DNA of 37,833 nucleotides. It comes from a virus. Position numbers and translations under genes: made by a program. The stretch's first letter is position 1, and each line of letters starts with the position of its first letter. Under the pieces are notes generated by a model. That model was not told the DNA's origin. It saw only the letters and a list, made by a program, of their open reading frames with translations, and searched no databases. Positions 4,089 through 17,392 of this stretch are shown piece by piece. The stretch lies in IMG/VR virus record IMGVR_UViG_3300032084_001688, positions 1 to 37,833 of that record. One strand, written 5' to 3'.

Positions 4089-5165
4089 ATGAGTAAAAAA
4101 TATCATATAACAGAGTCTCAGATGAGACGTTTAGTTAAACATATTAACGAAAGTCAGAAAGAACAAGAGGTATTAGAAGAGGGGTGGAAAGAAGTCGCTT
4201 TAGGTGCCGCTATGTTACTTGGAGCCACTTTTGGTGGTAATCAAGCTATGGCTCAGAAAGCTAACGACGCTGTAAATAAAACTGAAATACTAACACAAAT
4301 TAAATCTACACTAGAAGATGAAGAAGGTAAGGCCAATTTAGCCAAATTCCTTAAAATGTCTCCTGAACAGTTAGACGGTTATTTAGTTAAAAACGCTGAA
4401 AGGGTTGAGAATGACTTTGAGATGGCGGCTAAGAAAAAGAAATTAAATCTTAGTTTACATGTTAAAGATGTTAAAAATCAAAGGGGTAATATTACTTCTA
4501 AGGTTAAACAAGGTTACGCTGTTTCTGATATTATTGTACACAGAGACACTATTGTTGAACCAGGTGATGTTGTTTATGCACAAGATACAATAGACATCGC
4601 TTACTCTAACGCGGAAATGTTCGTTACAGGTAAATACCAATTAACACCTGAAGTAATGAACGACATTAATCAAACTATTGAGTCATTAAAATCTGTTGGT
4701 GGTAAGATTGTTAAAGTAAATGTGGAAGCTTCCACAGATAAAGAACCAATTAAAATAGGTAACGACCAACTAGCTAAAAACAGAGCTAATAGTGTTATCC
4801 AAGTTCTACAGTCTTTAGGTGTTGATGCTGACATGAGTGTAACAACACTACCCGACCAAGGGCCTGATGTGTATAGTAGAACTATGTCATCACAAGAAAG
4901 AGAACAAGCTCGTCAACAAACATCGGAATATAGATACGTTAAAATCAGTTTTGTTGTTATAGTAGCCGAACCTGTAACCGACCAACCTGAACCACTTTAT
5001 AAAGTTAACGAAAGGATTGAGGTTAAATTGGTTAGAACGGGTGTATACAAAAAAGGTAAACCAAAGAAATTTAAATACAAGAAACCTAAAACAAATTACA
5101 AAGGTAAATGTGTTAAGGTTAAAAAACATAAAGGACCAAAATTAGACTGTTATTTTGAAATGTAG
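4089..5165 (+). CDS. Tagged OmpA-like domain protein, putative virion cargo
   Basis: 358 residues from the ATG at 4089. That start is preferred over TTG 4056 and ATG 4062 because the promoter-like element lies at 4065-4074 and because it exposes the N-terminal tag. Residues 1-21 read like the other tags here (HITESQMRRLVKHINE) and end in I-N-E, a T4-type prohead protease site; a second such site (L-E-E) is at 29-31. A hydrophobic stretch (about 35-55, ending AMAQ) follows. Residues about 183-300 resemble the OmpA C-terminal peptidoglycan-binding fold, with NDQLAKNRANSV (225-236). The tail is very basic (KKGKPKKFKYKKPK). It may be a capsid- or tail-associated cell-wall-binding protein, or a secreted one. 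Confidence 0.75.
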   Translation: MSKKYHITESQMRRLVKHINESQKEQEVLEEGWKEVALGAAMLLGATFGGNQAMAQKANDAVNKTEILTQIKSTLEDEEGKANLAKFLKMSPEQLDGYLVKNAERVENDFEMAAKKKKLNLSLHVKDVKNQRGNITSKVKQGYAVSDIIVHRDTIVEPGDVVYAQDTIDIAYSNAEMFVTGKYQLTPEVMNDINQTIESLKSVGGKIVKVNVEASTDKEPIKIGNDQLAKNRANSVIQVLQSLGVDADMSVTTLPDQGPDVYSRTMSSQEREQARQQTSEYRYVKISFVVIVAEPVTDQPEPLYKVNERIEVKLVRTGVYKKGKPKKFKYKKPKTNYKGKCVKVKKHKGPKLDCYFEM

Positions 5166-5166
5166 T

Positions 5167-5193
5167 AAAAAGGTGGGTTATCCCACCTTTTTT
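5167..5193. terminator. Bidirectional terminator between convergent genes
   Basis: An eleven-pair perfect stem (AAAAAGGTGGG / CCCACCTTTTT) with a TTAT loop. Its A- and T-tracts make it work in both directions. It separates the OmpA-like gene (stop at 5165) from the CAP-domain gene, whose stop codon at 5192-5194 touches the T-tract. Confidence 0.9.
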
Positions 5194-5830
5194 ATTCTCT
5201 AAAGTTTTGTACCATATACTCATCACCCCAAGACGGATGTCCTTTTATATAATAAACTGATATATACTTCCATTTAACGTTAAGTATATTATATCTGTGT
5301 CCATAACCAGGTACACCAGCATCTACCATTAAACCTATTAAACTAGAACCACAATTTTCCGAACCTTTAGGTCCTAGTCTTTCAAACGGTGTTTGACCGT
5401 TTGGTCCGTAGTGTCCTGTTTGATTAACACTTTTTAAATACTCTCCGTGTGATACAGTTATTTTATACATTAAAGAATCAAATACTAATGTATCCATTGG
5501 TGTCAAAGTATCTAAAATACTTATTAGTTCTTCAGCTACTTTAATGTTTCTGATATGAACGTCTTTACCTGTGGTTTTTTTTATGTTAATATTTTTATTG
5601 TTAACATCTTTATTGCCTGTATAAGACACTGTTTTTATGGTAGATTTTGGGTCATCGTATCTACTCAATAACCACTTCTGAGCGTCCAAATATTTCTCAA
5701 CTTTTGGTATGTAAGATTTTGGGTTACTTCTAATTTTATTGATTTCATAAATCATTAACATTTCCTCATTGGTTTGTGTCGAACAAACAAACGGTACTAA
5801 AACTAATAATATTGCTATAAACTTTTTCAT
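5192..5830 (-). CDS. Secreted CAP-superfamily (SCP/PR-1-like) protein
   Basis: 212 residues from the ATG at 5830, chosen because MKKFIAILLVLVPFVCS is a clear signal peptide; the longer frame to 5875 only adds residues overlapping the upstream terminator. After the signal comes INKIRSNPKSY, typical of the first helix of bacterial CAP domains. Later come a helix with SHGEYLKSVNQTGHYGPNG, then GSENCGS and GYGHRYNILN, which supply the two histidines (SHG and GHR) and the NIL strand characteristic of the fold. CAP proteins are extracellular with varied roles. A phage-encoded exported copy is unusual and might act in the host envelope. It appears to have its own promoter. Confidence 0.75.
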   Translation of the reverse strand: MKKFIAILLVLVPFVCSTQTNEEMLMIYEINKIRSNPKSYIPKVEKYLDAQKWLLSRYDDPKSTIKTVSYTGNKDVNNKNINIKKTTGKDVHIRNIKVAEELISILDTLTPMDTLVFDSLMYKITVSHGEYLKSVNQTGHYGPNGQTPFERLGPKGSENCGSSLIGLMVDAGVPGYGHRYNILNVKWKYISVYYIKGHPSWGDEYMVQNFRE

Positions 5831-5834
5831 ATCA

Positions 5835-5865
5835 CTAATATACAAAAACAATTTTAAATAGCAAA
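5835..5865 (-). promoter_or_regulatory. Probable promoter of the CAP-domain gene
   Basis: On the - strand, TTTG (5865-5862) is followed by 19 bases and then TATATTAG (5842-5835), close to the Bacteroidetes TTTG-N19-TAnnTTTG pattern. It sits directly after the terminator T-run of the preceding gene. Transcription would start at or just before the ATG at 5830, giving a leaderless or nearly leaderless message. Confidence 0.45.
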
Positions 5866-5891
5866 AAAATCCCATTATTTAAATGGGATTT
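5863..5891 (-). terminator. Terminator of the CCA/2H gene, overlapping its stop codon
   Basis: On the - strand, a ten-pair perfect stem (AAATCCCATT / AATGGGATTT) with a five-base loop is followed by seven T residues (5869-5863). The gene's stop codon (5877-5875) lies at the loop and stem junction, so the last codons form half of the hairpin. Confidence 0.85.
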
Positions 5892-7416
5892 CTTGTAATG
5901 TTCCTGAAATTTTAAAAGGTTCTAATGAAGTCCAAGATGTAATATCATTACTCATTCTAGGTTTACCACTAGGTGATACAGCTAGTGTAACGTGTGGTGT
6001 TTTATTAGATACTTCTAAAGGTGTGTCAACCTTAACAGCTACTACATCACTTGTTGAACCTATATCGGTTACGGTTAATTCTATGTCTTGACCTATAAGA
6101 CCTCTTAATTTCATAGGTAAAGGACCTAAATTAACTGTCATGTGATGACAATAAACCTTCCAATCTTCAATATCTTTAAAGTGTTCGTATAATACGGAAA
6201 CTAAATGGTTTTGTGATTCACCATCCAAAACTACACCCGAATATGATATTGTAGATTTACCCATCAACATTTTGAATTTTTCAGTTTCTATTCTTTCTTT
6301 TTCTTGATTTATTTCTTTACCTCTAAAACCTTGTTTAGCTATTTGACCACCATCGGTGGTTATTTGGTATTTGATGAATGTTTTGATAAAATTAGTATCC
6401 ATACCCATCAACCTACCAAAGTTAGAAATAATTCCGTTATCTAAATGTAATCCTGTTAATTTATTTTTAAATTCAAAAGCTGTATCAGTTTCACCGTTTC
6501 TAAAGAAATCAATTAAAAATTTAACTTGTTTACCTTGTAGTTTGGTAAACTTTAATCTACCTATTAGTTTCTTATCTAAGTTTGTATCAATCTCATTTCT
6601 TAAAATAGAAGATATTACTATAATTGGTACTTTAGACTCAACTACTTCACCATCAGTATTTAAGTCTTGAAATACCCATTTCATTAAATCATATTTTCTA
6701 AGTAACCCTATAAACTGTTTAACAGATTTAGCTTGTATAATACCTTTAATAAATTCATCTTGAATTCTTTCCTGAGCTAAAGGTTTTCCGTCACCACTTA
6801 CTATTGAATTGTCTTTTTTAATAGCCTCATCAATACCTTTATCTACATCGGAACCGACACGTGCAGCAAATCTCATAGACCTCATTATCCTTAATTTGTC
6901 TTCGTCGAATCTATCTTCAGCATTACCAACTGTTTTAACAACACCGTTTTCCAAATCACTGATACCACCCACAAGGTCAACAACCTCACCTGTATCTAAA
7001 TCGTAGAATAAAGCGTTAATGGTTAAATCACGTCTTAATACGTCTTTGTCTATCGTAGAGAATTTTACTTCATCAGGTCTACGACCTTTACCTATATCTT
7101 CACGAAATGTAGCAATCTCGTAAGTGTCATCTTCAGTTACAACGTTTACAACGGCAAACTGTTCACCCGATTCTATTGTGTTGTACATAGGTAAAAGTTC
7201 CTTTACCTTATCAGGTACGGCATCAGTTGCCAAATCAAAATCTTTAGGTTTTCCACCCATCAAAGAATCCCTAACAGCACCACCAACAAGGTATAACTTA
7301 AACCCATTGTCTTTAAAAATTTTATGGATTTTATTTATTGAGTTAGGAACAGGGATATCCATTTTAACTCGGATTTCCTTATTCTCTTTTAGTATCTTTC
7401 TAATCATATCTTTCAT
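5875..7416 (-). CDS. CCA-adding tRNA nucleotidyltransferase fused to a 2H phosphoesterase domain
   Basis: 513 residues. Residues 1-11 (MKDMIRKILKE) match the short tag form here and end in an L-K-E prohead-protease-type site. Residues 25-250 are a class II polymerase-beta-type CCA or poly(A) enzyme: GGAVRD (45-50), the catalytic DFD pair D59/D61, RRDLTINAL (128-136) and the RIMRSMRFAAR helix (176-186). Residues about 385-513 form a second domain with two H-x-T motifs 50 residues apart (H425-M-T427 and H475-V-T477), the signature of 2H phosphoesterases that act on 2',3'-cyclic or 2'-5' phosphates in RNA. The fusion suggests tRNA 3'-end repair in one polypeptide. It is transcribed divergently from gp21. 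Confidence 0.85.
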   Translation of the reverse strand: MKDMIRKILKENKEIRVKMDIPVPNSINKIHKIFKDNGFKLYLVGGAVRDSLMGGKPKDFDLATDAVPDKVKELLPMYNTIESGEQFAVVNVVTEDDTYEIATFREDIGKGRRPDEVKFSTIDKDVLRRDLTINALFYDLDTGEVVDLVGGISDLENGVVKTVGNAEDRFDEDKLRIMRSMRFAARVGSDVDKGIDEAIKKDNSIVSGDGKPLAQERIQDEFIKGIIQAKSVKQFIGLLRKYDLMKWVFQDLNTDGEVVESKVPIIVISSILRNEIDTNLDKKLIGRLKFTKLQGKQVKFLIDFFRNGETDTAFEFKNKLTGLHLDNGIISNFGRLMGMDTNFIKTFIKYQITTDGGQIAKQGFRGKEINQEKERIETEKFKMLMGKSTISYSGVVLDGESQNHLVSVLYEHFKDIEDWKVYCHHMTVNLGPLPMKLRGLIGQDIELTVTDIGSTSDVVAVKVDTPLEVSNKTPHVTLAVSPSGKPRMSNDITSWTSLEPFKISGTLQEIPFK

Positions 7417-7442
7417 ATAGCCTAAATATACCTACAAATGTA

Positions 7443-7452
7443 CATATTTATA
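7443..7452 (+). promoter_or_regulatory. Candidate phage late promoter element, CATATTTATA
   Basis: A copy of the recurring element in the 54-base divergent gap between the CCA/2H gene and gp21. It ends 18 bases before the gp21 ATG and is followed by TAGAAATAAC. It points toward gp21. Confidence 0.55.
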
Positions 7453-7470
7453 TAGAAATAACAAAAAGAT

Positions 7471-8208
7471 ATGAAGATATTAAAACCAGGTGAAACAGGT
7501 TATGGTTATTTAGTGGAATATGACGCGGGATTTATTGGTCCTGAGTTAACTTGTGCTGATGGTACATGTACAAACGCTAATCTAATAAGAGAATTTGATT
7601 CGAGTATCAAATCACCTGACCTATATAATGAAGATGGTAGTCTACCAGACAAAGTTACTTTATACGCTGTATTACAAAAGTACGGTGTTGAGAATAGAAA
7701 CGGTAGAGTGTACCCAAAAGAGGTATTAGTAAAACAAAACGAAGCTTACCAAGAATATATTAAAATGAAAACAGCTCTAGGTGAATTGAATCACCCTGAA
7801 TCATCTATTATTGATGGTGAAAGAGTATCACACCTTATTACAGAAACATGGTGGGATGGAGCTACATTAATGGGTAAACTAGAATTAGACACAACTCCAG
7901 GTTATCACAAAATGGGTATCGTAAGTACTCTTGGTGATAAAGTGGCAAACATGTTAAGAAAAGGATGGACCGTAGGTATTTCTTCAAGGGGTGTTGGTTC
8001 ATTAAAACAAGAAGGTGGTAAGAATGTGGTACAAGATGATTTTGAAATTATTTGTTGGGACATTGTAACTTCACCATCTACACCAGGAGCTTGGGTGTCT
8101 ACTTCAGACGGTGACTTAAAACAATTTACCGAATCTACTGTAAACGGTAATAGAATTGTGGCAGAGTCAGACCAATCACTATTAAATAAATTAAACAAAT
8201 TACTGTAA
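7471..8208 (+). CDS. 21: Prohead core protease, T4 gp21-like
   Basis: 245 residues. This serine protease cleaves scaffold, capsid and internal proteins inside the prohead. T4 gp21 landmarks are all present: NRNGRVYPKEVL (76-87), ALGELNHPESS with the probable catalytic His108, ETWWDG (125-130), RKGWTVGISSRGVGSL (163-178) with the probable catalytic Ser at 171-172, and CWDIVTSPSTPGAWV (195-209). The family cuts after (Leu/Ile)-x-Glu, a motif that recurs in gp22, gp23 and the tagged proteins around it. Its stop overlaps the ATG of the next tagged gene (TAATG), placing that gene in the same head operon. Confidence 0.93.
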   Translation: MKILKPGETGYGYLVEYDAGFIGPELTCADGTCTNANLIREFDSSIKSPDLYNEDGSLPDKVTLYAVLQKYGVENRNGRVYPKEVLVKQNEAYQEYIKMKTALGELNHPESSIIDGERVSHLITETWWDGATLMGKLELDTTPGYHKMGIVSTLGDKVANMLRKGWTVGISSRGVGSLKQEGGKNVVQDDFEIICWDIVTSPSTPGAWVSTSDGDLKQFTESTVNGNRIVAESDQSLLNKLNKLL

Positions 8209-8684
8209 TGGCTAAGAAAGTTATAAGATTAACAGAAAAAGATATTGAATCTTTGGTTGGTAAAATCATGAATGAAGCTTCTGTTTCCAAAGACCAACAA
8301 AGAGCTGCCGGTATAGCGTTATCAGCTAAACGTGGTGAAACACCTGTTGGGGATTTAAAAGGTTCAGCTAAAGAGATGTATGACTCTATGACTGAAAAAC
8401 AACTTGAGGATTTTGCTAGTACAAAACATAAGGGTTTACCTGAAAAAGTTAATGAGGATTTACCTAGGAGAGAAAGGGAAAGACACGATACTCAATTTAG
8501 AAGAAGTTCATTTGAACCTTACCAAAGAGAATCTCAATTAATGGACATATTCGGACCTTATAAAGAAGACGTTCCACCAAACGTAATTTCTTATATGAGA
8601 AAAAATCCAGCTCTTATTATTAAGAGATTGGAACAAGTTTATGGTAGAGATAAAATTTTAAGATACTTAGGTATACAAGAGTAA
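8208..8684 (+). CDS. Tagged DUF3008-domain protein, putative prohead cargo
   Basis: 158 residues. Residues 1-23 are the long tag (VIRLTEKDIESLVGKIMNE), ending at E23 with a T4-type cleavage context. Residues about 24-80 (SKDQQRAAGIALSAKRGE, then LKGSAKEMYDSMTEKQLED and ASTKHKGLPEKV) match the small bacterial DUF3008 family, which has no known function. The C-terminal half is basic and unassigned. The ATG overlaps the gp21 stop. In T4 the small core proteins gp67 and gp68 lie next to gene 21, so position and tag both suggest a prohead core or internal protein. Confidence 0.8.
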   Translation: MAKKVIRLTEKDIESLVGKIMNEASVSKDQQRAAGIALSAKRGETPVGDLKGSAKEMYDSMTEKQLEDFASTKHKGLPEKVNEDLPRRERERHDTQFRRSSFEPYQRESQLMDIFGPYKEDVPPNVISYMRKNPALIIKRLEQVYGRDKILRYLGIQE

Positions 8685-8697
8685 TATATATAAAAAG

Positions 8698-8734
8698 GCG
8701 CTGCAGCGCTTTAGCAAAAAGCAGCTTAAGCAGC
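8698..8734 (+). repeat. GC-rich palindrome plus short direct repeats in an AT-rich gap
   Basis: GCGCTGCAGCGC (8698-8709) is a perfect 12-base palindrome, extendable to 8695-8712 with one G-T pair. Two copies of AAGCAGC follow (8719-8725 and 8728-8734), separated by TT, with GCTTAAGC palindromic across the junction. It lies between two head-region genes and has no T-run, so it is not a standard terminator. An RNA hairpin or protein-binding site is possible. Confidence 0.6.
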
Positions 8735-8747
8735 AATCATTTTTAAT

Positions 8748-9167
8748 ATGAAAAAAAAAGATAAATTAAAAAACATAGAAGAAGCTAATAAGAGATTATT
8801 AGGTGAAGACTTTGAATGGACTGGTGATGTACCTTCTGATGAAAAATATAAAATGAAAAGTTCTTCAAAGTATGATTTATCTGAAAAAGAAAACTTAGAT
8901 GAGTTTATGAACCAACTGATTACCTTATGGAATCAATATACAGGACATAAACCAAACAACGCGGCAATCGCTAATGACAATAGAGCTATATTATTCAACC
9001 TACTTACAAGTGGTGAGTTAGCTAAACAAATAAATCAAAGAATCCCACCAAGTAGTTTACATATGGGTTCACATGGTAGAGAATATTGGTCTAACAACCC
9101 AGAACAAATGACCAAATTTTTAAATAATATAGGTATAACAGATTTCCAACTTAAACCATTAGGATAA
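8748..9167 (+). CDS. Hypothetical head-region protein
   Basis: 139 residues. The N-terminus is basic and amphipathic (MKKKDKLKNIEEANKRLLGE), with an L-G-E at 18-20 that could be another prohead-protease site, though the sequence differs from the main tag. The rest is soluble and polar (Asn- and Gln-rich; NPEQMTKFLNNIGITDF near the end). No known family. The stop overlaps the ATG of the next tagged gene (TAATG at 9165-9169), so it belongs to the gp21 head operon. Probably a minor head or core protein, by context only. Confidence 0.75.
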   Translation: MKKKDKLKNIEEANKRLLGEDFEWTGDVPSDEKYKMKSSSKYDLSEKENLDEFMNQLITLWNQYTGHKPNNAAIANDNRAILFNLLTSGELAKQINQRIPPSSLHMGSHGREYWSNNPEQMTKFLNNIGITDFQLKPLG

Positions 9168-9460
9168 TGAAAAAAAGAGTAATTAGATTAACAGAATCAG
9201 ACGTAGAAAATTTAGTGAAAAAAATCATTAAAGAAGAGGATACCATTAGTAGTTCAGAACTAGGTCAAAATACTAAAGACACAGCTAAAGAACTTAAGAA
9301 AGGTGGGTTAGCTCCAAAAGAAAGAGAAACATTAAACCAAGCTATAGAAATGTTAACAAACTTTTTTAAACAACCAGGTAATCAAGCAACAGGAAAAGCT
9401 TATAACCTATTCAATAAACTAAAATCTGAATTAGAAAATGTTAAACCTGAAGAGGAGTAA
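9167..9460 (+). CDS. Small tagged protein, putative prohead core protein
   Basis: 97 residues. Residues 1-23 are the canonical long tag (VIRLTESDVENLVKKIIKE) with an I-K-E cleavage context after E23. The remaining 74 residues are charged and helical (ELKKGGLAPKERETLNQAIEMLTNFF) with an acidic tail. The tag is nearly the same as in the 14836-15279 protein, while the bodies differ. Predicted mature form: residues 24-97, if gp21 cuts there. The start is fixed by TAATG overlap with the upstream stop. Confidence 0.78.
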   Translation: MKKRVIRLTESDVENLVKKIIKEEDTISSSELGQNTKDTAKELKKGGLAPKERETLNQAIEMLTNFFKQPGNQATGKAYNLFNKLKSELENVKPEEE

Positions 9461-9522
9461 CATTTACAAGTATGATTAGATTGAATATTCTTAATCTATA
9501 ATCATTAAAAAAGTTTTAAATT

Positions 9523-9756
9523 ATGAACGAACAAATAGCAAAGTACTTTTTAGTAAAAGTTGAGTTCGAAGGAATCAACGAGAACAACGGGAAACCAAAG
9601 AAAATTAAATCACAATACTTAGTGGATGCACAATCGTGTACTGAGGCTGAGGCAAGAATGTCTGAATATCTTAAAGATACTATTCTAGACTACGAAATCG
9701 TTTCAGCTGTGAAATCTCCAATTGAAGATGTTGTAGAGGTGTCGGTAACGGCTTAA
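9523..9756 (+). CDS. DUF4494 family protein
   Basis: 77 residues. The pattern YFLVKVEFEG..NENNGKPKKIKSQYLVDAQSCTEAEAR matches DUF4494, a short family found mainly in Bacteroidetes and their phages, with no established function. It supports the host assignment. It follows the tagged gene by 62 bases; the gap holds a weak inverted repeat (AGATT/AATCT) and an A-rich leader. The last four bases overlap the end of the convergent metallopeptidase gene, leaving no terminator between them. Confidence 0.8.
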   Translation: MNEQIAKYFLVKVEFEGINENNGKPKKIKSQYLVDAQSCTEAEARMSEYLKDTILDYEIVSAVKSPIEDVVEVSVTA

Positions 9757-10160
9757 TCTCTATACTTGTGGGGTAACCCACACAAATCTGATAACCTATG
9801 AAAGTGTTCATCATGTTCATGGTTCTTATGACCAAGAACGGCGTGGATAAGTTCATGGGTTATTATATGCTTAACGTATTCCTCACCACCATTATCAATA
9901 GCTTTAGGTTTAATTAACATAATCCCATGGTCATCTTCATTCTCAGGATGAATAAAGGCCCCAATCTTACCATCTTTAAAGTTATCATCGAATTTTAAAT
10001 AAATTTCAGGTATATCAGGCTCATGTCCGTGTAAATTTTTATATGCTCTGTAAATTTTTTTAACACAGTCATTAAATAATTCATTTAACGAATTATCCTC
10101 GATTTTTACATCGTTTTCGATGTATTCTCTAAGTATTACACGAATTTTTTCTCTTACCAT
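9753..10160 (-). CDS. SprT-like zinc metallopeptidase with short N-terminal tag
   Basis: 135 residues. HELIH (102-106) is the HExxH zinc site, followed by HKNHEHDEHFHRL with a candidate third ligand at H116 or H119, as in SprT- or WSS-like proteases. The preceding beta-strand segment (PEIYLKF...IGAFIHP...GIMLIKP) also fits this fold. Residues 1-12 (MVREKIRVILRE) resemble the short tag and end in L-R-E, so it may be packaged in the capsid. SprT-type enzymes cleave proteins on DNA; the substrate here is unknown. It has its own late-like element immediately upstream. Confidence 0.7.
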   Translation of the reverse strand: MVREKIRVILREYIENDVKIEDNSLNELFNDCVKKIYRAYKNLHGHEPDIPEIYLKFDDNFKDGKIGAFIHPENEDDHGIMLIKPKAIDNGGEEYVKHIITHELIHAVLGHKNHEHDEHFHRLSDLCGLPHKYRD

Positions 10161-10163
10161 AAC

Positions 10164-10173
10164 TATAAATATC
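10164..10173 (-). promoter_or_regulatory. Candidate phage late promoter element, GATATTTATA (minus strand)
   Basis: A copy of the recurring element reading toward the metallopeptidase gene. It ends only three bases before the ATG at 10160, much closer than the other copies. The message would be leaderless, or the true start may lie further downstream. Confidence 0.4.
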
Positions 10174-10193
10174 TGAATAAGTCAAGAATAAAA

Positions 10194-10215
10194 TAAACAA
10201 AATTTTATTTGTTTA
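10194..10215. repeat. AT-rich inverted repeat in the divergent gap before gp22
   Basis: TAAACAAA (10194-10201) and TTTGTTTA (10208-10215) form a perfect eight-base inverted repeat around a six-base loop. It sits in the 146-base gap between the metallopeptidase and scaffold genes, between their two opposing promoter-like elements. It could be an operator or a weak hairpin; no function is shown. Confidence 0.4.
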
Positions 10216-10236
10216 AGATTTTTCCACATCAAATTA

Positions 10237-10246
10237 CATATTTATT
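10237..10246 (+). promoter_or_regulatory. Candidate phage late promoter element, CATATTTATT, before the scaffold gene
   Basis: A copy of the recurring element 60 bases before the gp22 ATG, the longest leader of the set. The leader contains CCCTATATGGG, a small three-pair hairpin, and a long A-rich run just before the start codon. Confidence 0.5.
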
Positions 10247-10306
10247 GAGAAACGACCCTATATGGGTGCGTAATAATAATTAATTCTTTAAACAAAAAAG
10301 AAAAAA

Positions 10307-11524
10307 ATGGCAAAAGAAGAAAAATCGGTTATCGAACAAGCTCTCCTAGAGGCAGAACAAATTGATGCTACCTTCAAAGCCAACGCGAAAGAAATACTGA
10401 CTCAAACAATGGGTTCAGAAATTGAAGACATGGTAAAGGAATCTTTAGAAGGTTCAAGAAAGGCTATTAATGAGGATGAGGACGATGACATGGAAGCAAC
10501 AGACCTAGATTTAGGGGCTGATGATGAATTAGACCTAGAAATGGGTGACGACGAAGCTGACGATTTAGACTTAGGTTTAGATTTAGGTGGAGACGAATTA
10601 GAAGGTGAAGATGAAATGGATATCGTTGACTTGACCGACGCAGATGACGCAGAGTTAATCAAAGTCTTTAAGGCTATGGACCCTGACTCAGAAATCGAAG
10701 TTGTTCAAGATGAAGACGGTGTATCATTTACCGACACTGAAACTGGTGCTGAATACAAAGTACAACTTGGTGGTGAAATGGAATTGGAAGACGATGAGTT
10801 AGAAGATGACATGGAACTAGAGTTAGGTGACATGGATGACGAAGAAGAAGTTATCGACTTAGAAGCTGGTGATGAACTAGAAATCGAAGAAGGTGAAGAA
10901 GAAGTTGTTTATGAAATCGAAATCACTGAAGAAGATGACGAAGACGATGAGGAAGATGAACTTGAAGAAGGAAGTCGTACTCTAGGTTCTGGTAGGTCTC
11001 ATGGTAGAAAAGGATTACCTAAACCAAAGGCTTATAAGAAAATGTCAGAATCAAGAAGACCAAGTACTACTGATGTAAAACTTGTAAAAGAGAACAAAGT
11101 TCTAAAACATAAATTAAATGGTCTTGTATCTGAAAATGAGGAGTTAAAAGAAAACCATGAAAAAATGGTTGACGCTCTTAAACAGTTCAGACAAAAGTTA
11201 CAGGAAGTAGCTGTATTCAATAGTAACCTAGCACACGTTGTTAGATTATTTACTGAGAACACTACAACCAAAGAGGAAAAAGTTGACATCGTTAAGAGAA
11301 TGGATGAGGCTACTTCACTTAAAGAATCTAAGATGATGTTCAAAACATTATCTAAAGAACTTGAAAGTGTTAAGTCTAAAAAAACAATCCAAGAGTCTGT
11401 TGACGAGAAAGTTAATAAAACAGCCTCTACAGGTTCTAAAGAAATAATAACAGAATCTAAAGTATATGCACACCCAGAACTTGATAAAATGAAAAAGATG
11501 TGGGAGTTCAACTACAAATACTAA
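10307..11524 (+). CDS. 22: Prohead scaffold (core) protein, T4 gp22-like
   Basis: 405 residues. The position between gp21 and gp23 matches T4 gene order. Residues about 55-225 are extremely acidic, dominated by Asp and Glu. A helical coiled-coil follows (about 255-300), then a basic to mixed C-terminus, as expected for a core protein that is degraded after assembly. Candidate prohead protease sites include I-N-E at 54-56 and I-T-E at 381-383, which would release a 22-residue C-terminal peptide (SKVYAHPELDKMK...). The assignment rests on context and composition rather than strong sequence identity, which is usual for scaffolds. Confidence 0.85.
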   Translation: MAKEEKSVIEQALLEAEQIDATFKANAKEILTQTMGSEIEDMVKESLEGSRKAINEDEDDDMEATDLDLGADDELDLEMGDDEADDLDLGLDLGGDELEGEDEMDIVDLTDADDAELIKVFKAMDPDSEIEVVQDEDGVSFTDTETGAEYKVQLGGEMELEDDELEDDMELELGDMDDEEEVIDLEAGDELEIEEGEEEVVYEIEITEEDDEDDEEDELEEGSRTLGSGRSHGRKGLPKPKAYKKMSESRRPSTTDVKLVKENKVLKHKLNGLVSENEELKENHEKMVDALKQFRQKLQEVAVFNSNLAHVVRLFTENTTTKEEKVDIVKRMDEATSLKESKMMFKTLSKELESVKSKKTIQESVDEKVNKTASTGSKEIITESKVYAHPELDKMKKMWEFNYKY

Positions 11525-11557
11525 TAACGAAAAATAATTTTAAAAAAACCAAAAAAA

Positions 11558-13306
11558 ATGGGATATTTATTAAAATCAGGTGAAGTTGGAAACATCGGAC
11601 TTAAACACCAAAAAGCAATCCGTGAAGCAACGGTAAACAAATGGGACTCTTTAGGATTCCTAGAAGGACTTGAAGGTCACGTAAGAGAGAACATCGCTCT
11701 TTTATATGAGAACCAAGCGTCTGTATTAATCAACGAAACTACTGACTCAGCAGGGTCAAACGGTTCTTTCGAGACTGTAGTTTTCCCAATCATTAGAAGA
11801 GTATTCTCTAAGTTATTGGCTAACGATATCGTATCTGTACAAGCATTAAACTTACCAATCGGTAAATTATTCTACTTTGTACCTAAGATTTCTGATAGAG
11901 ATAATTTTACTGACCCACTATTAGGTAATCATAGAGGTCCTAAAGTTGTTAACTGTATTAACTGTCCAGCAGTTACTTTCTCAGGAAACACTAACCTTTA
12001 TGACGCATTTTATGATGACGCTTTATTTGACCACTCTAAAGGAGCTATAACTGTTAACACTGTAACAGGTACAGCTGTAACTTTCGCATCTAACACTTAT
12101 ACAGCTGGTGACGAACCTTTATCTAACGATGGTTCAAGAAGAAGACAACTTTTAGAGGTAGCTGGATTCTCTCAAGCTTCAGCTGGTAGATTAATCGGAC
12201 CTGACGGTGAAGAGGTTGATACTGAAGAGTTCTTAGCATCTCTTAGAGTTATCGCTACAAATGACATACTAGCACACAGTTCAGCTGACCCTGGTAACCC
12301 TACGAACGTAATCGTATCTGCTGGTAACGAAGTACCATTTAGAGTACACACAATGCAGTACGGTAAAGGTATGATTAACTATGGGGATATCTGTAACGCT
12401 AACGGAAACCTTTACATCGAATTAGACCTTACTACTCCAGTATGTGTTGAGTGTGGTGATAACACTTTTGATGGTTACATCGGAGCATCTACAGGTACTA
12501 CAATAGATGGTGGAAATACATACGTTACTTGGAACTCTTATGACTCTTTAGAGGAAGAAGACCAAATGGGGGAAGTTTCTTTCGAACTTGATTCTGTAAC
12601 AGTATCGGTTACTGAAAGAAAACTAAGAGCTACTTGGACTCCTGAATTAGCACAAGATGTAAGTGCATTCCACAACATCGATGCTGAAGCTGAATTAACA
12701 GCATTACTTTCTGAACAAGTTGCAGCTGAAATCGATAGAGAAATCTTGAGAGACTTAAGAAAAGGAGCAGCATGGTCATTAAGATGGGATTACAACGGAT
12801 GGAAGAGATTACCTAACAACAACGGTTACACTCAAAAAGATTGGAACCAAACTCTTGTTACGGCAATCAACCAAATCTCAGCACAAATCCATAAATCAAC
12901 TTTAAGAGGTGGAGCTAACTTCGTAGTTGTATCTTCTGAGGTATCAGCAGTGTTTGATGACTTAGAGTACTTCCACGTATCTAACGCATCTCCTGAGTCT
13001 GATACTTACAACATGGGTATCGAAAGAGCTGGTTCATTAGGTGGTAGATATACTGTATACCGTGACCCTTACGCACCTTCTTACTCTGTGTTAATTGGAC
13101 ATAAAGGTAAATCATTGTTAGACACAGGTTACATCTACGCACCATACGTACCGATGCAACTTACCCCTACAATGTACAACCCATTCAACTTTGTTCCGAT
13201 TAAAGGTATCATGACAAGATACGCTAAGAAAATGGTTAACAACCGTTTCTACGGACACATCAGAGTTGACGGATTGAGAACATTCCCTGTGGCTGAATTG
13301 AGATAA
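11558..13306 (+). CDS. 23: Major capsid protein, T4 gp23-like
   Basis: 582 residues, HK97-fold shell protein. Near the N-terminus, ENQASVLINE (51-60) followed by a small-residue linker and VVFPIIRRVFSKLLANDIVSVQALNLPIGKLF parallels T4 gp23 around its maturation site, so cleavage after Glu60 is expected. The C-terminal half has the typical EAELTALLSEQVAAEIDREIL helix and GRYTVYRDPYAP strand. It is about 60 residues longer than T4 gp23, with an insertion around 130-330 containing two CxxC pairs (C133/C136 and C296/C299). Codon choice is richer in C-ending codons than in neighbours, as expected for high expression. A strong terminator follows. Confidence 0.95.
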   Translation: MGYLLKSGEVGNIGLKHQKAIREATVNKWDSLGFLEGLEGHVRENIALLYENQASVLINETTDSAGSNGSFETVVFPIIRRVFSKLLANDIVSVQALNLPIGKLFYFVPKISDRDNFTDPLLGNHRGPKVVNCINCPAVTFSGNTNLYDAFYDDALFDHSKGAITVNTVTGTAVTFASNTYTAGDEPLSNDGSRRRQLLEVAGFSQASAGRLIGPDGEEVDTEEFLASLRVIATNDILAHSSADPGNPTNVIVSAGNEVPFRVHTMQYGKGMINYGDICNANGNLYIELDLTTPVCVECGDNTFDGYIGASTGTTIDGGNTYVTWNSYDSLEEEDQMGEVSFELDSVTVSVTERKLRATWTPELAQDVSAFHNIDAEAELTALLSEQVAAEIDREILRDLRKGAAWSLRWDYNGWKRLPNNNGYTQKDWNQTLVTAINQISAQIHKSTLRGGANFVVVSSEVSAVFDDLEYFHVSNASPESDTYNMGIERAGSLGGRYTVYRDPYAPSYSVLIGHKGKSLLDTGYIYAPYVPMQLTPTMYNPFNFVPIKGIMTRYAKKMVNNRFYGHIRVDGLRTFPVAELR

Positions 13307-13328
13307 TCAATAAAACCAAATAAACTCT

Positions 13329-13356
13329 AAAGGAGGACTTCGGTCCTCCTTTTTTT
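13329..13356 (+). terminator. Terminator after the major capsid gene
   Basis: A ten-pair perfect stem (AAAGGAGGAC / GTCCTCCTTT) with a UUCG tetraloop, the most stable loop class, followed by a run of T residues. It ends the head transcript. The opposing gene finishes at 13355, so it may also help from the other side, though the T-tract there is poor. Confidence 0.92.
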
Positions 13357-13750
13357 ATGCTGATAATTTTTTAAAGAAATTTTTAAATCTATCCCACTTA
13401 GATTTTCTAGGTAATGGGTGTATTAATTCTACCCATTCATTTTGTAAATAAACTTCCATTAGATTTGTATCGGTATTATACCTTAATTGTCCTTGTGATG
13501 GTGGGATTTCAGCTGAACCTGCTACAACTAAATCACTAATAGTTACTTGATTGTTTGTGTCTATACGTAAACCTTCATTATTATAACCTAATTGTATTAT
13601 GTTATGGTCTGATATTGTTGTGGTCCACTCCGTACTACCATCGTATACTAAAACACCACCATCTACAGGTGGGTAATTAGGTATTATATTCCTACGTTTT
13701 TTAGGTTTATTTTCTACGAAACTCCAAGCATGTAAATCCCTCTTAATCAT
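13355..13750 (-). CDS. Probable virion structural or fibre-associated protein
   Basis: 131 residues. The segment GQLRYNTDTNLMEVYLQNEWVEL (about 85-107) has the pattern often seen in phage tail-fibre and virion surface proteins, where RYNTDTN and NEW/NxW precede a short strand. VLVYDGSTEW (33-42) is similar in style. The C-terminus is basic (KSKWDRFKNFFKKLSA). No enzymatic motif. It may be a fibre tip, decoration or adaptor protein. Its start is preceded by a partial palindrome (GTATTATTAATAC) but not by the full late element. Confidence 0.65.
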   Translation of the reverse strand: MIKRDLHAWSFVENKPKKRRNIIPNYPPVDGGVLVYDGSTEWTTTISDHNIIQLGYNNEGLRIDTNNQVTISDLVVAGSAEIPPSQGQLRYNTDTNLMEVYLQNEWVELIHPLPRKSKWDRFKNFFKKLSA

Positions 13751-13789
13751 GTATTAATAATACCGAATAAGAGGGACTAATTGTAGAGT

Positions 13790-13987
13790 TTAGACGAAAT
13801 TAAACTCAGGTATTGATTTTTCTACGAATTGTTCATCCCCGAACCAATCTTCCATGGTTACCTTTTCATACGCTTCATATAACTCCTTAATTAATTCAGA
13901 GTTTCTCATATCATACATAAATTCTATATCTGACATGTTATACTCAACGTATCTACTTTCTCTTTCCATATATCCGTAGTCATTCAT
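13790..13987 (-). CDS. Hypothetical small acidic protein
   Basis: 65 residues, acidic and aromatic-rich (MNDYGYMERESRYVEYNMSDIEFMYDM), predicted helical. No family recognised. It starts one base after the stop of the upstream gene (13989), so it is likely translated from the same message. Coding status rests on the tight spacing and lack of a competing frame. Confidence 0.6.
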   Translation of the reverse strand: MNDYGYMERESRYVEYNMSDIEFMYDMRNSELIKELYEAYEKVTMEDWFGDEQFVEKSIPEFNFV

Positions 13988-13988
13988 A

Positions 13989-14738
13989 TTAATAATCTAA
14001 TTTAATTTTTTTACCCTCAGCTATTTTCATGTTAGAATCACCCTCTAAAGTATCATTAACTAAGTTAATTATATCAGATGGTACATTCTTATAGATTTCC
14101 ATCATATCAGACACATTTAATTGGGTATCTTTTACGTTCCAAATTGTAAGACCTTTGTCTTTATCCTTGTACTTGTGGAAAGCCAATTTAGCGTGGTTGT
14201 TTTCAGGTTTTCTAGCGTCAGCCTCTTTAACTCTTTTGTCGATTAAGAAAACAAGAACACCGTTTTGGGTGTAATCTTTAAAGTACTTCTTAAAGTTGTG
14301 GTCATCAGCCGATACACACCATTTGGTAGATTTTCCGTAAAGGTTGGAACTTCTAGAAGTAAGTGGTTGTAACAATAACCAAGTATCATCCTCATGTAAT
14401 ACTAAAGTTTCTTTCTTTTTAACTTCAGAACGTGTTACTTTTTCACGAGCCAATTTAATCTCATCAACAATATCTTGATTACCCTCATAGGAATAGATAT
14501 CTTTATTTTCCAATAAGTTTCTTTCTGATAACTCTTCAAACTCTTTTACAATGTCAAACATTTCTTTAAAAGTGTTTTTCTGTAATTCTTCTTTAAACCA
14601 CTCCAACCAATCTTTGGTTTGTGATACCATAAATGGTAAATATTTATTCGTCTTTGAGGGGTCGTGTGAAGCTAATATATCCACTAAATCTATAACATAT
14701 TCAGGATTCTGTGCTTTTACGTCTTTAATTCTCGCCAT
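13989..14738 (-). CDS. Conserved-looking phage protein with a STKWC motif, function unknown
   Basis: 249 residues. The central region contains DDTWLLLQPLTSRSSNLYG, then KSTKWCVSADDHNFKKYF and VLVFLIDKR, then HAKLAFHKYKD and GLTIWNVKDTQ. This resembles a family I have seen in phage genomes with a (S/G)TKWC core and alternating strands, but I cannot name it or assign an activity. The N-terminal 100 residues are helical. A Bacteroidetes-type promoter at 14777-14807 suggests host-polymerase, probably early or middle, expression, unlike the neighbouring head genes. Confidence 0.75.
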   Translation of the reverse strand: MARIKDVKAQNPEYVIDLVDILASHDPSKTNKYLPFMVSQTKDWLEWFKEELQKNTFKEMFDIVKEFEELSERNLLENKDIYSYEGNQDIVDEIKLAREKVTRSEVKKKETLVLHEDDTWLLLQPLTSRSSNLYGKSTKWCVSADDHNFKKYFKDYTQNGVLVFLIDKRVKEADARKPENNHAKLAFHKYKDKDKGLTIWNVKDTQLNVSDMMEIYKNVPSDIINLVNDTLEGDSNMKIAEGKKIKLDY

Positions 14739-14776
14739 ATTCTACAATTATGTGTTTATTACTGTTTAATTCTCTA

Positions 14777-14807
14777 CAAATATAGAAAACCTTTTTCTTA
14801 CAAACAA
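14777..14807 (-). promoter_or_regulatory. Bacteroidetes-type vegetative promoter
   Basis: On the - strand, TTG (14807-14805), 20 bases, then TATATTTG (14784-14777), an exact TAnnTTTG. A start site about seven bases on gives a leader of roughly 30 bases for the gene starting at 14738. It overlaps closely with the divergent late-like element at 14809-14818, so the two may interfere. Confidence 0.65.
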
Positions 14808-14808
14808 G

Positions 14809-14818
14809 ATATTTATAT
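14809..14818 (+). promoter_or_regulatory. Candidate phage late promoter element, GATATTTATA
   Basis: A copy of the recurring element ending 17 bases before the ATG at 14836 and followed by TAAAAAACAC. It is nearly identical over 15 bases to the copy at 4065 (GATATTTATATAAAA), which precedes another tagged gene. Confidence 0.55.
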
Positions 14819-14835
14819 AAAAAACACAGACTTTT

Positions 14836-15279
14836 ATGAAAAAGAGAATAGTTAGATTAAACGAACAAGATATAGAGAACCTAGTTAAGAAAATAATCAA
14901 GGAAGATGATACTATGGATTCTACACAACCAAAAGAAAAAAAGGAAGAACCAAAAACAACCATGACTCGTCACGCAGCTTATCCAGCAATTGATAGATTA
15001 GAGACTGAGTTGGAGAGACTTAAAATGGAATTCAAAGATAGTATTGCTAACGCGGTATCAGGAACAGATGGTTATCATAGTGAAATAGATAAATTCTCAG
15101 AAGACTTTGGTAAATTCATTACAAAGGTATCAAACCTTAAAAGTAAAATTAATCAATACCAACTAGATACTAAGGAACAAAGAAAAAAGGCTGTTGAACA
15201 AAGAAAAGCTTCCTACATGGCACAACATAACGATAGAAAACATAAGGCTTCGAGAGAAGGTAGAAATTATTCTTATTAA
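14836..15279 (+). CDS. Tagged coiled-coil protein, putative prohead cargo
   Basis: 147 residues. Residues 1-23 are the long tag (IVRLNEQDIENLVKKIIKE) with an I-K-E cleavage context after E23; it is closest to the tag of the 9167-9460 protein. The body has a low-complexity Lys/Glu/Thr stretch (30-45), a coiled-coil-like region (about 50-125) and a basic C-terminus rich in Arg, Lys and His (RKASYMAQHNDRKHKASR). A basic, packaged protein might contact DNA in the head, which is inference. It starts a three-gene + strand unit. Confidence 0.75.
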   Translation: MKKRIVRLNEQDIENLVKKIIKEDDTMDSTQPKEKKEEPKTTMTRHAAYPAIDRLETELERLKMEFKDSIANAVSGTDGYHSEIDKFSEDFGKFITKVSNLKSKINQYQLDTKEQRKKAVEQRKASYMAQHNDRKHKASREGRNYSY

Positions 15280-15280
15280 T

Positions 15281-15475
15281 ATGAATTGGAAAAAACAAAA
15301 ATTAGCTAACATGGTGTCAGCGAACACTAACCTACTTAAAGAAACTCATGTAGATACTGACGAAGGTAAAATGAACTATATTAAAGGGGCTTTAAATAAT
15401 TTAAGTTCTGAAGATTTAGATAAGGTTTATGCTCAAGTAGAGAAATTAGACCCTGAATATAAAGGTAGAAAATAA
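15281..15475 (+). CDS. Hypothetical small protein
   Basis: 64 residues from the ATG at 15281, one base after the upstream stop; the longer frame beginning at 15194 overlaps the tagged gene and is not credible. The sequence (MNWKKQKLANMVSANTNLL, ending EKLDPEYKGRK) is helical and soluble. LSSEDLDKVYAQVEKL looks like a short helix pair. No family recognised. Confidence 0.65.
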   Translation: MNWKKQKLANMVSANTNLLKETHVDTDEGKMNYIKGALNNLSSEDLDKVYAQVEKLDPEYKGRK

Positions 15476-15477
15476 TT

Positions 15478-15621
15478 ATGAAAGAATGTACTTGTAATAA
15501 TTGTGACTGTGGTGGTACATGTACTCGTGAATGTACTTGTGAATGTTGTAAAACCGTTACAGTAGATATAAAGACTATGAAACCTAAACGTGGTGATTAT
15601 ACAAAAAATGAAAAGGTCTGA
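15478..15621 (+). CDS. Cysteine-rich microprotein, possible metal binder
   Basis: 47 residues, starting two bases after the previous stop in the same run. Nine cysteines fall within residues 4-24, in repeated CxC, CxxC and CC patterns (CTCNNCDCGG, then CTRECTCECC). This resembles metallothionein-like or small zinc-cluster proteins. The C-terminal half (TVDIKTMKPKRGDY) has no cysteine. The stop codon lies within the stem of the terminator that follows. With so many cysteines and no signal peptide, intracellular metal binding is the simplest reading. It is not a recognised family. Confidence 0.6.
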   Translation: MKECTCNNCDCGGTCTRECTCECCKTVTVDIKTMKPKRGDYTKNEKV

Positions 15622-15638
15622 TTTCTCAGACCTTTTTT
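15611..15638. terminator. Bidirectional terminator containing a stop codon
   Basis: An eleven-pair perfect stem (AAAAGGTCTGA / TCAGACCTTTT) with a TTTC loop and T-tracts on both strands. The TGA stop of the cysteine-rich gene forms the top of the stem. The convergent gene ends at 15640. Confidence 0.9.
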
Positions 15639-15639
15639 A

Positions 15640-15906
15640 TTATCTACAAACTAAATTTTGTATTTCTCTTAGGTAATTGTTATATACATCTGCGTCACCA
15701 CCAATATCTTCAATATCTCTTTTTGTTTGTTGTCTTATTGATTCTATTTCTTTTTGGTATTTGTCGTCATATTCCATCTTATCTAACAAATCCTCTATTT
15801 CATCCCAAGAGTTAACTGTCATAATATCACAAATATTATGTTCTGTTGACATTACTTCCTCGTTATCAAACTCTTCTTTTAGTATTTTTTTAATTAAATC
15901 CTTCAT
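15640..15906 (-). CDS. Small acidic protein with the short tag
   Basis: 88 residues from the ATG at 15906, one base after the upstream stop; a longer frame to 15975 runs back into the upstream structural gene. Residues 1-11 (MKDLIKKILKE) are almost the same as the first 11 of the CCA/2H fusion (MKDMIRKILKE) and end in L-K-E. The rest is acidic and helical (SWDEIEDLLDKMEYDDKYQKEIES). The shared tag on two otherwise unrelated proteins is the main point of interest. Function unknown. Confidence 0.7.
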   Translation of the reverse strand: MKDLIKKILKEEFDNEEVMSTEHNICDIMTVNSWDEIEDLLDKMEYDDKYQKEIESIRQQTKRDIEDIGGDADVYNNYLREIQNLVCR

Positions 15907-15907
15907 A

Positions 15908-17392
15908 TTAACACCAATCTTTTTCTGACACAATTTCAAACTTAATAACATCATCATAAGTTCTTGTTTCATCACCTGACTCTATTTTAACCTCTAAATA
16001 ATAGTCGTTAGGGATAAACCAAGATGTATCCACAAGGAAGAAGTTACCGTCAAATGCTCTACTAACCTCAGTCCAATCAATATATTCAATTTGAGTATTA
16101 CCTTCCCTTATATAAATTCTGTAATATATCTTATCTAAGACACCCACTTGGTCTAAAGTAAGTGGTACTCTCGCCTCTACGTTTAAACGTCTTGTGTCAC
16201 CTCTTTTAATCTTTTCAAGATGTTTTATACCACTCACACGGAAAGCGTAATCGTATATAGATAAATTAGAAGAACTTCCAACACCTAACCCACTAGCTCC
16301 AGCCGCCATTGTAGTACCGACAGTGTAATAAGAATTTTCTTCTCTAAGTATAAACTCTTGTTCCGAATTACCTAAACTATTACCATTTATAGTAACATTT
16401 GACCATGTATCCGTAAACATAACATTACCACAATAACCTGATGCTGGTGTATTAGGTACGTTAACTGTTACATAATAAACACCACAATCCTGTTTAGTTA
16501 TACCTGAGGAAGGTATAGTTTGATAAACATTATCGTTATGGTCTTTTATTATAACATTATCGAATGTGGCATCAACTCTTTCACCACCAGCGTTAACATA
16601 AAGATAAAGTCTATTAGACTTATCCAAGTAGAAATGATTCCTATCGTCCTTAATAGTAGTATCAAAAGTAGTCTCAATAAATGGTTCGTAAACAGTGTTA
16701 GTTTCTTTTCCAAAAAAGCCAACATAGAATGTATCTTCATCTGTAAGTATTTCTTGTGAGTAGTTGTAAGCGATACCTAATCCGTTAAAAGTACTAGTAT
16801 CTCCTGTTAATAAAAGATTATTTATATAATCTGTTATATCTATACAAAGGTTTTCATCACCGTGGTCAAAATGTTGTGTACCTACAACAATACCACCGTT
16901 AAATGTTTGAGCGTCACCGCTATAAGTACCGTTGTGGGTCCAATTAACGTTAGTTTGTCTTTCTAACCAGTTGGCTGGTGATTCACAATAAGTTTTATTG
17001 GCGTCTTCACAAGTTATAGATGGAGCCTCAACATAATCATAACCATTACCTTCATCCCAAGATTCAGGTATTTCAAATAAAATCAAATCAAATGAAGTGG
17101 CTCTTCTAACGTCACCGACTGAACTACAATTTGTTTTACAATATAATTCTTTGTCGAAACATGACGTATTTGTCATTTTTAAAGTATGTGTCATACCAGT
17201 TATACTAGTACAACTAGTTTTACCTGTTATTTGTGAAAAATCTATGTCGAATAGATATCTAGAATATTTTGTATCGTTAATATTTGTAGAACCACCGTAA
17301 AATAGTTCGGTAATTGGGTTACTACCCGTGTTAACACAAGAGTTTCTAACTATAGTCGTATCTTTTGAGAAGTATGTACGTAAAATGCCCAT
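15908..17392 (-). CDS. Large virion structural protein, probable tail or baseplate component
   Basis: 494 residues, rich in Asn, Thr, Ser, Tyr and aromatic residues, predicted all-beta, with at least fourteen cysteines mostly in the first 185 residues and no enzymatic motif. The first half (WDEGNGYDYV...NWTHNGTYSGDAQTF...LCIDITDYINNLL) resembles the DNRLRE / carbohydrate-binding-like beta-sandwich of surface proteins. The C-terminal part (IKRGDTRRLNVEARVPL...YYRIYIREG...YYLEVKIESGDETRTY) looks like Ig-like domains. It follows the gp5-like hub gene and is preceded by a late-promoter-like element. A role in host binding or in the baseplate is likely by context. Confidence 0.75.
   Translation of the reverse strand: MGILRTYFSKDTTIVRNSCVNTGSNPITELFYGGSTNINDTKYSRYLFDIDFSQITGKTSCTSITGMTHTLKMTNTSCFDKELYCKTNCSSVGDVRRATSFDLILFEIPESWDEGNGYDYVEAPSITCEDANKTYCESPANWLERQTNVNWTHNGTYSGDAQTFNGGIVVGTQHFDHGDENLCIDITDYINNLLLTGDTSTFNGLGIAYNYSQEILTDEDTFYVGFFGKETNTVYEPFIETTFDTTIKDDRNHFYLDKSNRLYLYVNAGGERVDATFDNVIIKDHNDNVYQTIPSSGITKQDCGVYYVTVNVPNTPASGYCGNVMFTDTWSNVTINGNSLGNSEQEFILREENSYYTVGTTMAAGASGLGVGSSSNLSIYDYAFRVSGIKHLEKIKRGDTRRLNVEARVPLTLDQVGVLDKIYYRIYIREGNTQIEYIDWTEVSRAFDGNFFLVDTSWFIPNDYYLEVKIESGDETRTYDDVIKFEIVSEKDWC

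Follow-up and report, generated by a model that had tools for sequence, protein, structure and literature searches.

Exchangeable N-terminal leaders on unrelated proteins of uncultured T4-like phages are probable capsid-targeting propeptides

N-terminal signals for entry into the phage head are an established kind, known from T4, P1 and SPN3US (PMC3012670, PMC9024508, PMC5694885). The capsid-targeting sequence (CTS) of T4 needs about 10 residues; residues 4 and 7 serve mainly in targeting and residues 8 and 10 in processing, two functions that lie in separable parts of the leader (PMC9026906). In SPN3US, gp53 and gp54 have an identical 15-residue start (PMC5694885, PMC10052503). In the cyanophage S-SCSM1, 45 virion proteins were identified by mass spectrometry, and an NMNAT was named by the authors as detected in the virion (PMC9602691). 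This work describes a set of N-terminal leaders found in a 37.8-kb virus record of IMG/VR (IMGVR_UViG_3300032084_001688, positions 1 to 37,833; the whole stretch is called the window), the left half of which is filled by a T4-like head module. The leaders are real, N-terminal, kept as peptide and common to unrelated proteins, and the phages in which they occur have a protease of the gp21 type and a head of the gp23 type. They are probably capsid-targeting propeptides that work like the T4 CTS, with longer or different sequences and in several interchangeable classes.

Three unrelated proteins of the window, named here by their start positions, begin with a common 23-residue leader. These are MAKKVIRLTEKDIESLVGKIMNE/A on a DUF3008-containing protein (8208..8276), MKKRVIRLTESDVENLVKKIIKE/E (9167..9235) and MKKRIVRLNEQDIENLVKKIIKE/D (14836..14904), all on the plus strand; a slash marks the predicted cut. 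All three match a leader profile at their ATG. A 25-residue query from the 9167 protein reached the 14836 protein at 29.2 bits (E 3e-9) and the 8208 protein at 18.4 bits (E 1.9e-5) among the 423 open segments of the window, against a top score of at most 10.7 bits in 100 residue-shuffled windows. The likeness of these three starts, on which an earlier reading of the sequence (the original prediction) had been built, is thus borne out. That prediction had listed seven tagged N-termini in all; each is present where it was placed, and the recurrence is wider than was then seen.

The consensus of the long leader is MKKIIRLTESDLxRIVKRVIKE, with a length of 22-23 residues. A first profile, made from the three window copies, was run on 80 loci chosen by protease alone. 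Its 46 matches came from the window and from near relatives, every one at an ATG. Selection of IMG/VR by the leader itself gave at least 168 confirmed places. An iterated profile matched 215 times over 161 loci; 212 of these matches have an ATG and two a GTG or TTG at the expected position, which puts 214 of 215 at a start codon, the very N-terminal position of a CTS. Up to eight tagged genes lie within a 20-kb stretch (locus L139; loci of the comparison are given as L numbers). PhoH-selected contigs were tried as a control and proved mostly close relatives, so random IMG/VR contigs were used instead; the long leader was in none of 41, an empty answer that is weak alone, and the same alignment matched 9 of 12 relatives. 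Among 84,980 prokaryote species genomes there were 104 pattern matches, none confirmed as a leader. Searches of cultured phages by tblastn gave no match for the 14836, 9167 and SprT-like proteins; they gave none for a 24-residue leader either, a negative that carries no information at that query length and with a low-complexity filter on. The leader-bearing phages are uncultured and T4-like and probably infect Bacteroidetes; Flavobacterium phages are among their closest cultured relatives.

Conservation stops abruptly behind the leader. When every body family counts once, the long leader holds some 2-3.7 bits of information per residue (two positions are near 1); the value is 3.5 bits at the terminal glutamate, falls to 1.6 bits at the next residue and is below 0.3 from three residues on. 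The residue before the predicted cut (P1) is E in 97% of long leaders, and P3 is I, L or V, with M also seen. By codon position the leader holds 1.08, 1.31 and 0.38 bits, and there is hardly any conservation in the DNA upstream. The first and second codon positions are kept and the third varies; therefore selection acts on the peptide. This bears on the idea that the 5' ends are conserved as recombination stubs, a stretch of common DNA through which accessory genes can shuffle and which has no function at the peptide level. Leaders do repeat where unrelated small genes stand in arrays (L139, L151), and the codon behind an identical residue is the same a little more often than chance would give (63% vs 55%), but the idea was rejected on the codon-position conservation and is very improbable.

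At least 69 body families (BLAST, E<1e-3) stand behind the long leaders, a diversity of unrelated cargo like that of a CTS. If the shared start were plain homology, whole genes would descend from a common ancestor. Some bodies do form families, the largest with 14 members, but the number of separate families, together with a body of the YMFF-containing family that is seen with a long leader, a short one or none, makes common ancestry the least credible of the explanations weighed here. The sole Pfam match at E<=1e-3 among the 69 is a peptidoglycan-binding domain, and Pfam places no replication, metabolism or tail family among them; the outcome that had been named as fatal to the original prediction, a profile that spreads over many non-virion genes, was thus not observed. 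Bodies behind short leaders include SprT-like, CCA-adding and GP88 domains. An ADP-ribosyltransferase-like cargo, suggested by YHG(S/T) motifs in L132 and L075 and a YHIT motif in L072, had no Pfam support in any of the three; L132 and L075 also had no support from PDB sequence search and no relatives, and the L132 model was useless (pLDDT 33). A polyphosphate kinase 2 (2.7e-70) fused to a phage lysozyme (6.1e-19) lies inside the leader-rich block of L139 (14040-15803).

The leaders are exchangeable parts, swapped between orthologues exactly at the glutamate. At one junction, orthologues read MNIRKIIKEELLKE/VGGYDDP or near variants in about a dozen loci and MKKKVIRLTESDLEKLVKKIITE/VGGYDDP in L019. 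In the window, L009, L010 and L025 the family of the 9167 protein starts with the long leader; in L003 this is replaced by MNRLNKLKHIEELNKRLLSE, a third leader of the KLKxIEExNKRLLSE type. The 8208 body is itself modular. Its DUF3008 spans residues 27-81, and cyanophage homologues start where the window leader stops (MPAVSKAQQR, or M-PAVSKxQQR, vs MNE/ASVSKDQQR). A second predicted cut site, V-N-E/D (8448..8456, plus strand), lies between the DUF3008 module and a C-terminal LPRRERER module; its N-E is invariant in 6 of 6 homologues, in the pattern [VI]-N-E/[ADG]-x-P-x-R-E. The DUF3008 module is missing in four of five relatives, where the leader almost directly joins the second N-E site, and L027 has a different insert between the two. 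A structure predicted from six sequences, at moderate confidence, suggests a helix at residues 10-23 followed by a break; its low-confidence stretches, 21-24 and 73-86, would correspond to the two predicted cut sites, again at moderate confidence.

At least three leader classes occur within the window, so the original prediction of a single shared tag is not supported. The third type, MKKKDKLKNIEEANKRLLGE/DFEW (8748..8807, plus strand), marks an eighth tagged protein that had been overlooked, and the same leader is on unrelated bodies in L003, L007 and L126. Short leaders of 11-14 residues are on three minus-strand proteins: MKDMIRKILKE/N on a CCA-adding/2H-like protein (7384..7416; PF01743 7.9e-36), MVREKIRVILRE/Y on an SprT-like protein (10125..10160; SprT-like 4.2e-5, just under the Pfam cut-off) and MKDLIKKILKE/E on a small acidic protein (15874..15906), the last from an internal ATG of the open reading frame listed at 15640-15975. 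The CCA/2H leader is present in the window, L120, L023, L024, L027 and L144 and absent in L003 and L005; most relatives of the SprT-like protein start with a short amphipathic N-terminus; and the L021 relative of the small acidic protein starts with MRSLIRKILKEE.

The short leader resembles the C-terminal half of the long one. Its motif is hydrophobic-[RKQ]-x-hydrophobic-hydrophobic-x-E, where the E falls at residue 8-16. This was observed at N-termini 23 times vs 0.6 expected in near relatives, 8 vs 0.8 in far relatives and 50 vs 2.9 in leader-selected contigs; in random IMG/VR contigs there were 2 vs 1.15 expected, without enrichment. By this enrichment the CCA, SprT-like and small acidic proteins carry tags of a real class, although none of the three tags, all included in the original prediction, is significant singly, and some motif matches are surely chance, for example L144 17258 (glycosyltransferase-like by eye). 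Of 107 short leaders, 19 are followed by a D-F-[DE]-W-like element, vs 11 of 2096 other starts. In the window it stands at 8808-8819, after the 8748 leader; it recurs right behind short leaders on unrelated proteins in many loci.

The OmpA-like protein (PF00691 9.6e-11; homologues in L003, L004 and L120) has a divergent leader, MSKKYHITESQMRRLV...VLEE/GWKEV (4089..4181, plus strand). This had been taken for a variant of the long tag with a cut at E21. At 1.8 bits against the long tag it belongs to a separate class, KYxITESQMxxxV, and the residue kept in the three homologues is not E21 but the junction E-E/G (LEE/G, E31 in the window). An N-terminal class MK[YFIV]I[IL][TS]E[SRQ]xL..., which resembles the start of the OmpA-like protein, is on many small proteins of L139, L105, L111 and L150, within the gene blocks that also hold the long leader. 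In the cultured, gp23-type Flavobacterium phage immuto (L260, NC_055915; 2294-25468), two other leaders, with ends of the [LI]-x-E type, are repeated on unrelated proteins: one like MKKSxLRxIIKEAL on gp072, gp080, gp094 and gp095, and one of the form NFDLKKFLVENKLTxNSxLLKE (cf. NFDLKKFLVENKLT) on gp076, gp077 and gp092.

The window also holds the machinery that such leaders would use. A gp21-type prohead protease of Peptidase S77 (7471..8208, plus strand) matches PF03420 at 2.5e-29, with 102.6 bits against a Pfam cut-off of 27, and PHROG 207, head maturation protease, at 1.6e-43; it is the predicted leader-removing enzyme. The major capsid protein of the gp23 family lies at 11558..13306 (plus strand; PF07068 1.2e-70). 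Between the two genes is an acidic protein like a prohead core or scaffold (10307..11524, plus strand), whose alignment has conserved [IL]-x-E/[SD] sites. The capsid protein has a predicted maturation site, I-N-E60/T61 (codons 11729-11737, plus strand), and the motif is kept: the expected place reads [IL]-[NTS]-E/[TAS] in 42 distinct capsid proteins of these phages. The leader ends share its hydrophobic-x-E form, that of a gp21-type site.

Among leader-selected contigs of at least 100 kb, S77 is in 13 of 16; the other three are also without gp23, and therefore those fragments probably hold no head module. Random contigs have S77 in 4 of 41, but most are shorter, which makes the contrast with the leader-selected contigs rough. 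The strand and neighbourhood of the leaders are compatible with late genes. A link to the virion comes from S-SCSM1, in which ORF93, annotated as a virion protein, is a leaderless DUF3008 homologue of the 8208 body. This label was taken for the mass-spectrometry set because the NMNAT named by the authors bears it too; the proteins so labelled are slightly more than 45. The C-terminus of ORF93 (L337:2995-3204), RTFKEFLEYIE, resembles a T4-type leader motif.

The case for capsid-targeting propeptides thus combines a gp21-family protease and a gp23 gene next to the leaders, conservation that ends after (I/L/V)-x-E, a capsid site that is also [IL]-x-E, leaders that swap at the E, and a leaderless homologue in cyanophage virions. 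This is the best-supported form of the original prediction, that of a T4-like signal in a longer form, once its single tag and its E21 site are dropped; cleavage and packaging are parts of it that we infer. Several observations weigh against it. Direct evidence of packaging is confined to the leaderless homologue. The co-occurrence of S77 and gp23 is not independent evidence, since it is within related phages. A far group of protease-selected loci (L029-L082) has the protease and short leaders but no long leader, and the terminal E is absent from a few leaders (L005, L025, L019). In whole contigs many leaders lie at least 30 kb from the head genes, one of them on the opposite strand. The residue behind the cut (P1') is mostly Q, E or D in long leaders (39%, 24% and 10%) vs A, S or T at capsid sites. 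A likeness between the leader and the scaffold N-terminus (SEIEDMVKESL vs SDVENLVKKII) scored below 4 bits and was rejected. S-SCSM1 ORF30, which has the other T4-like leader of that genome, is without a virion-protein mark.

Direct packaging evidence confined to a homologue, the distance of many tagged genes from the head genes and the P1' difference would all suit a tag that localises or docks proteins at a target outside the capsid, such as the replication compartment, the membrane or the tail and baseplate, the E being merely part of a helix. Such a tag would leave unexplained the abrupt stop of conservation, the swaps at the E, the virion homologue of one body and the presence of S77 in every leader-selected contig of at least 100 kb that has gp23, and it is unlikely.

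If the leaders are capsid-targeting propeptides, their basic stretch and the short amphipathic helix behind it would dock the protein on the prohead core during head assembly. The gp21-family protease would then cut behind the terminal (I/L/V)-x-E, as in core and capsid proteins, and the freed cargo would stay inside the head, travel with the DNA and probably be injected with it. By analogy with T4, targeting would fall to the helix and processing to (I/L/V)-x-E. Docking and injection, like the steps between, are what we infer from the comparison. A bolder proposal, less likely than not, is a modular address code, in which dedicated gene blocks supply large and rapidly changing sets of unrelated effector enzymes and the interchangeable classes bring these into the head. 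Its classes would be the long RLTESD, the short MxxLIKKILKE, KLKxIEExNKRLLxE and MKYIITESQ, together with MKKSxLRxIIKEAL and NFDLKKFLVENKLT of immuto; different classes may serve different core layers or timing.

Should the capsid-targeting reading be right, a rule based on sequence alone would predict virion-borne, host-entering proteins among the unknowns of uncultured T4-like phages, and would give direct candidates for anti-defence and takeover proteins. It would also supply new leaders with which proteins could be loaded into phage heads. The T4 CTS idea, which now covers a handful of proteins, would extend to around a hundred families of cargo, with leaders that evolve as exchangeable parts.

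Other genes of the window are of interest. The product of 59-847 and its far relatives (L032 7861, L057 8025) have a conserved start, FGxIKNxFNxxLxE/[AGS], which may also be cut; in relatives this gene directly follows a portal-sized gene, and it is a possible core protein. Judged by eye, 1782-2858, which adjoins the head module, looks like a glutamine synthetase and 5192-5875 on the minus strand like a CAP/SCP-like secreted protein.

A search of open-access papers turned up no description of these leaders, of several interchangeable classes or of use at this scale. The closest described system is the T4 CTS, found on internal proteins and Alt and removed by gp21, which is likewise N-terminal, ends in a site with E, is carried by diverse unrelated cargo and goes with an S77 protease and a gp23-type head (PMC9026906, PMC5694885, PMC3012670). 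The long leader differs in its 22-23 residues, outside the 10-20 of the T4 CTS, in its sequence (the T4 sequence was not aligned by a tool), in its several coexisting classes and in far more cargo families; the short leaders match the T4 CTS in length, not in sequence. In S-SCSM1, the NMNAT starts with a T4-CTS-like leader, MKSFLQFLKE/A, and is alike in being a virion enzyme whose leader ends in L-x-E (PMC9602691); it differs in its T4-like leader sequence, and the S-SCSM1 genome yielded just two leaders of that kind. The head propeptides of SPN3US and phiKZ are also N-terminal and cut by a prohead protease after x-E (PMC5694885, PMC10052503). Their cut is A-x-E (S/A-x-E in phiKZ), whereas P3 of the leaders is I, L or V; most SPN3US propeptides have 111-254 residues, and the common SPN3US start is on two paralogues vs dozens of unrelated bodies here. 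DarB of P1 has an N-terminal packaging signal too, its first 30 residues being sufficient for entry of a reporter into the capsid, but the N-termini of the P1 Dar proteins have no consensus according to the authors, and P1 seems to be without a separate scaffold (PMC9024508). The leaders described here are therefore placed as CTS-like in their working and not as sequence members of the T4 CTS family.

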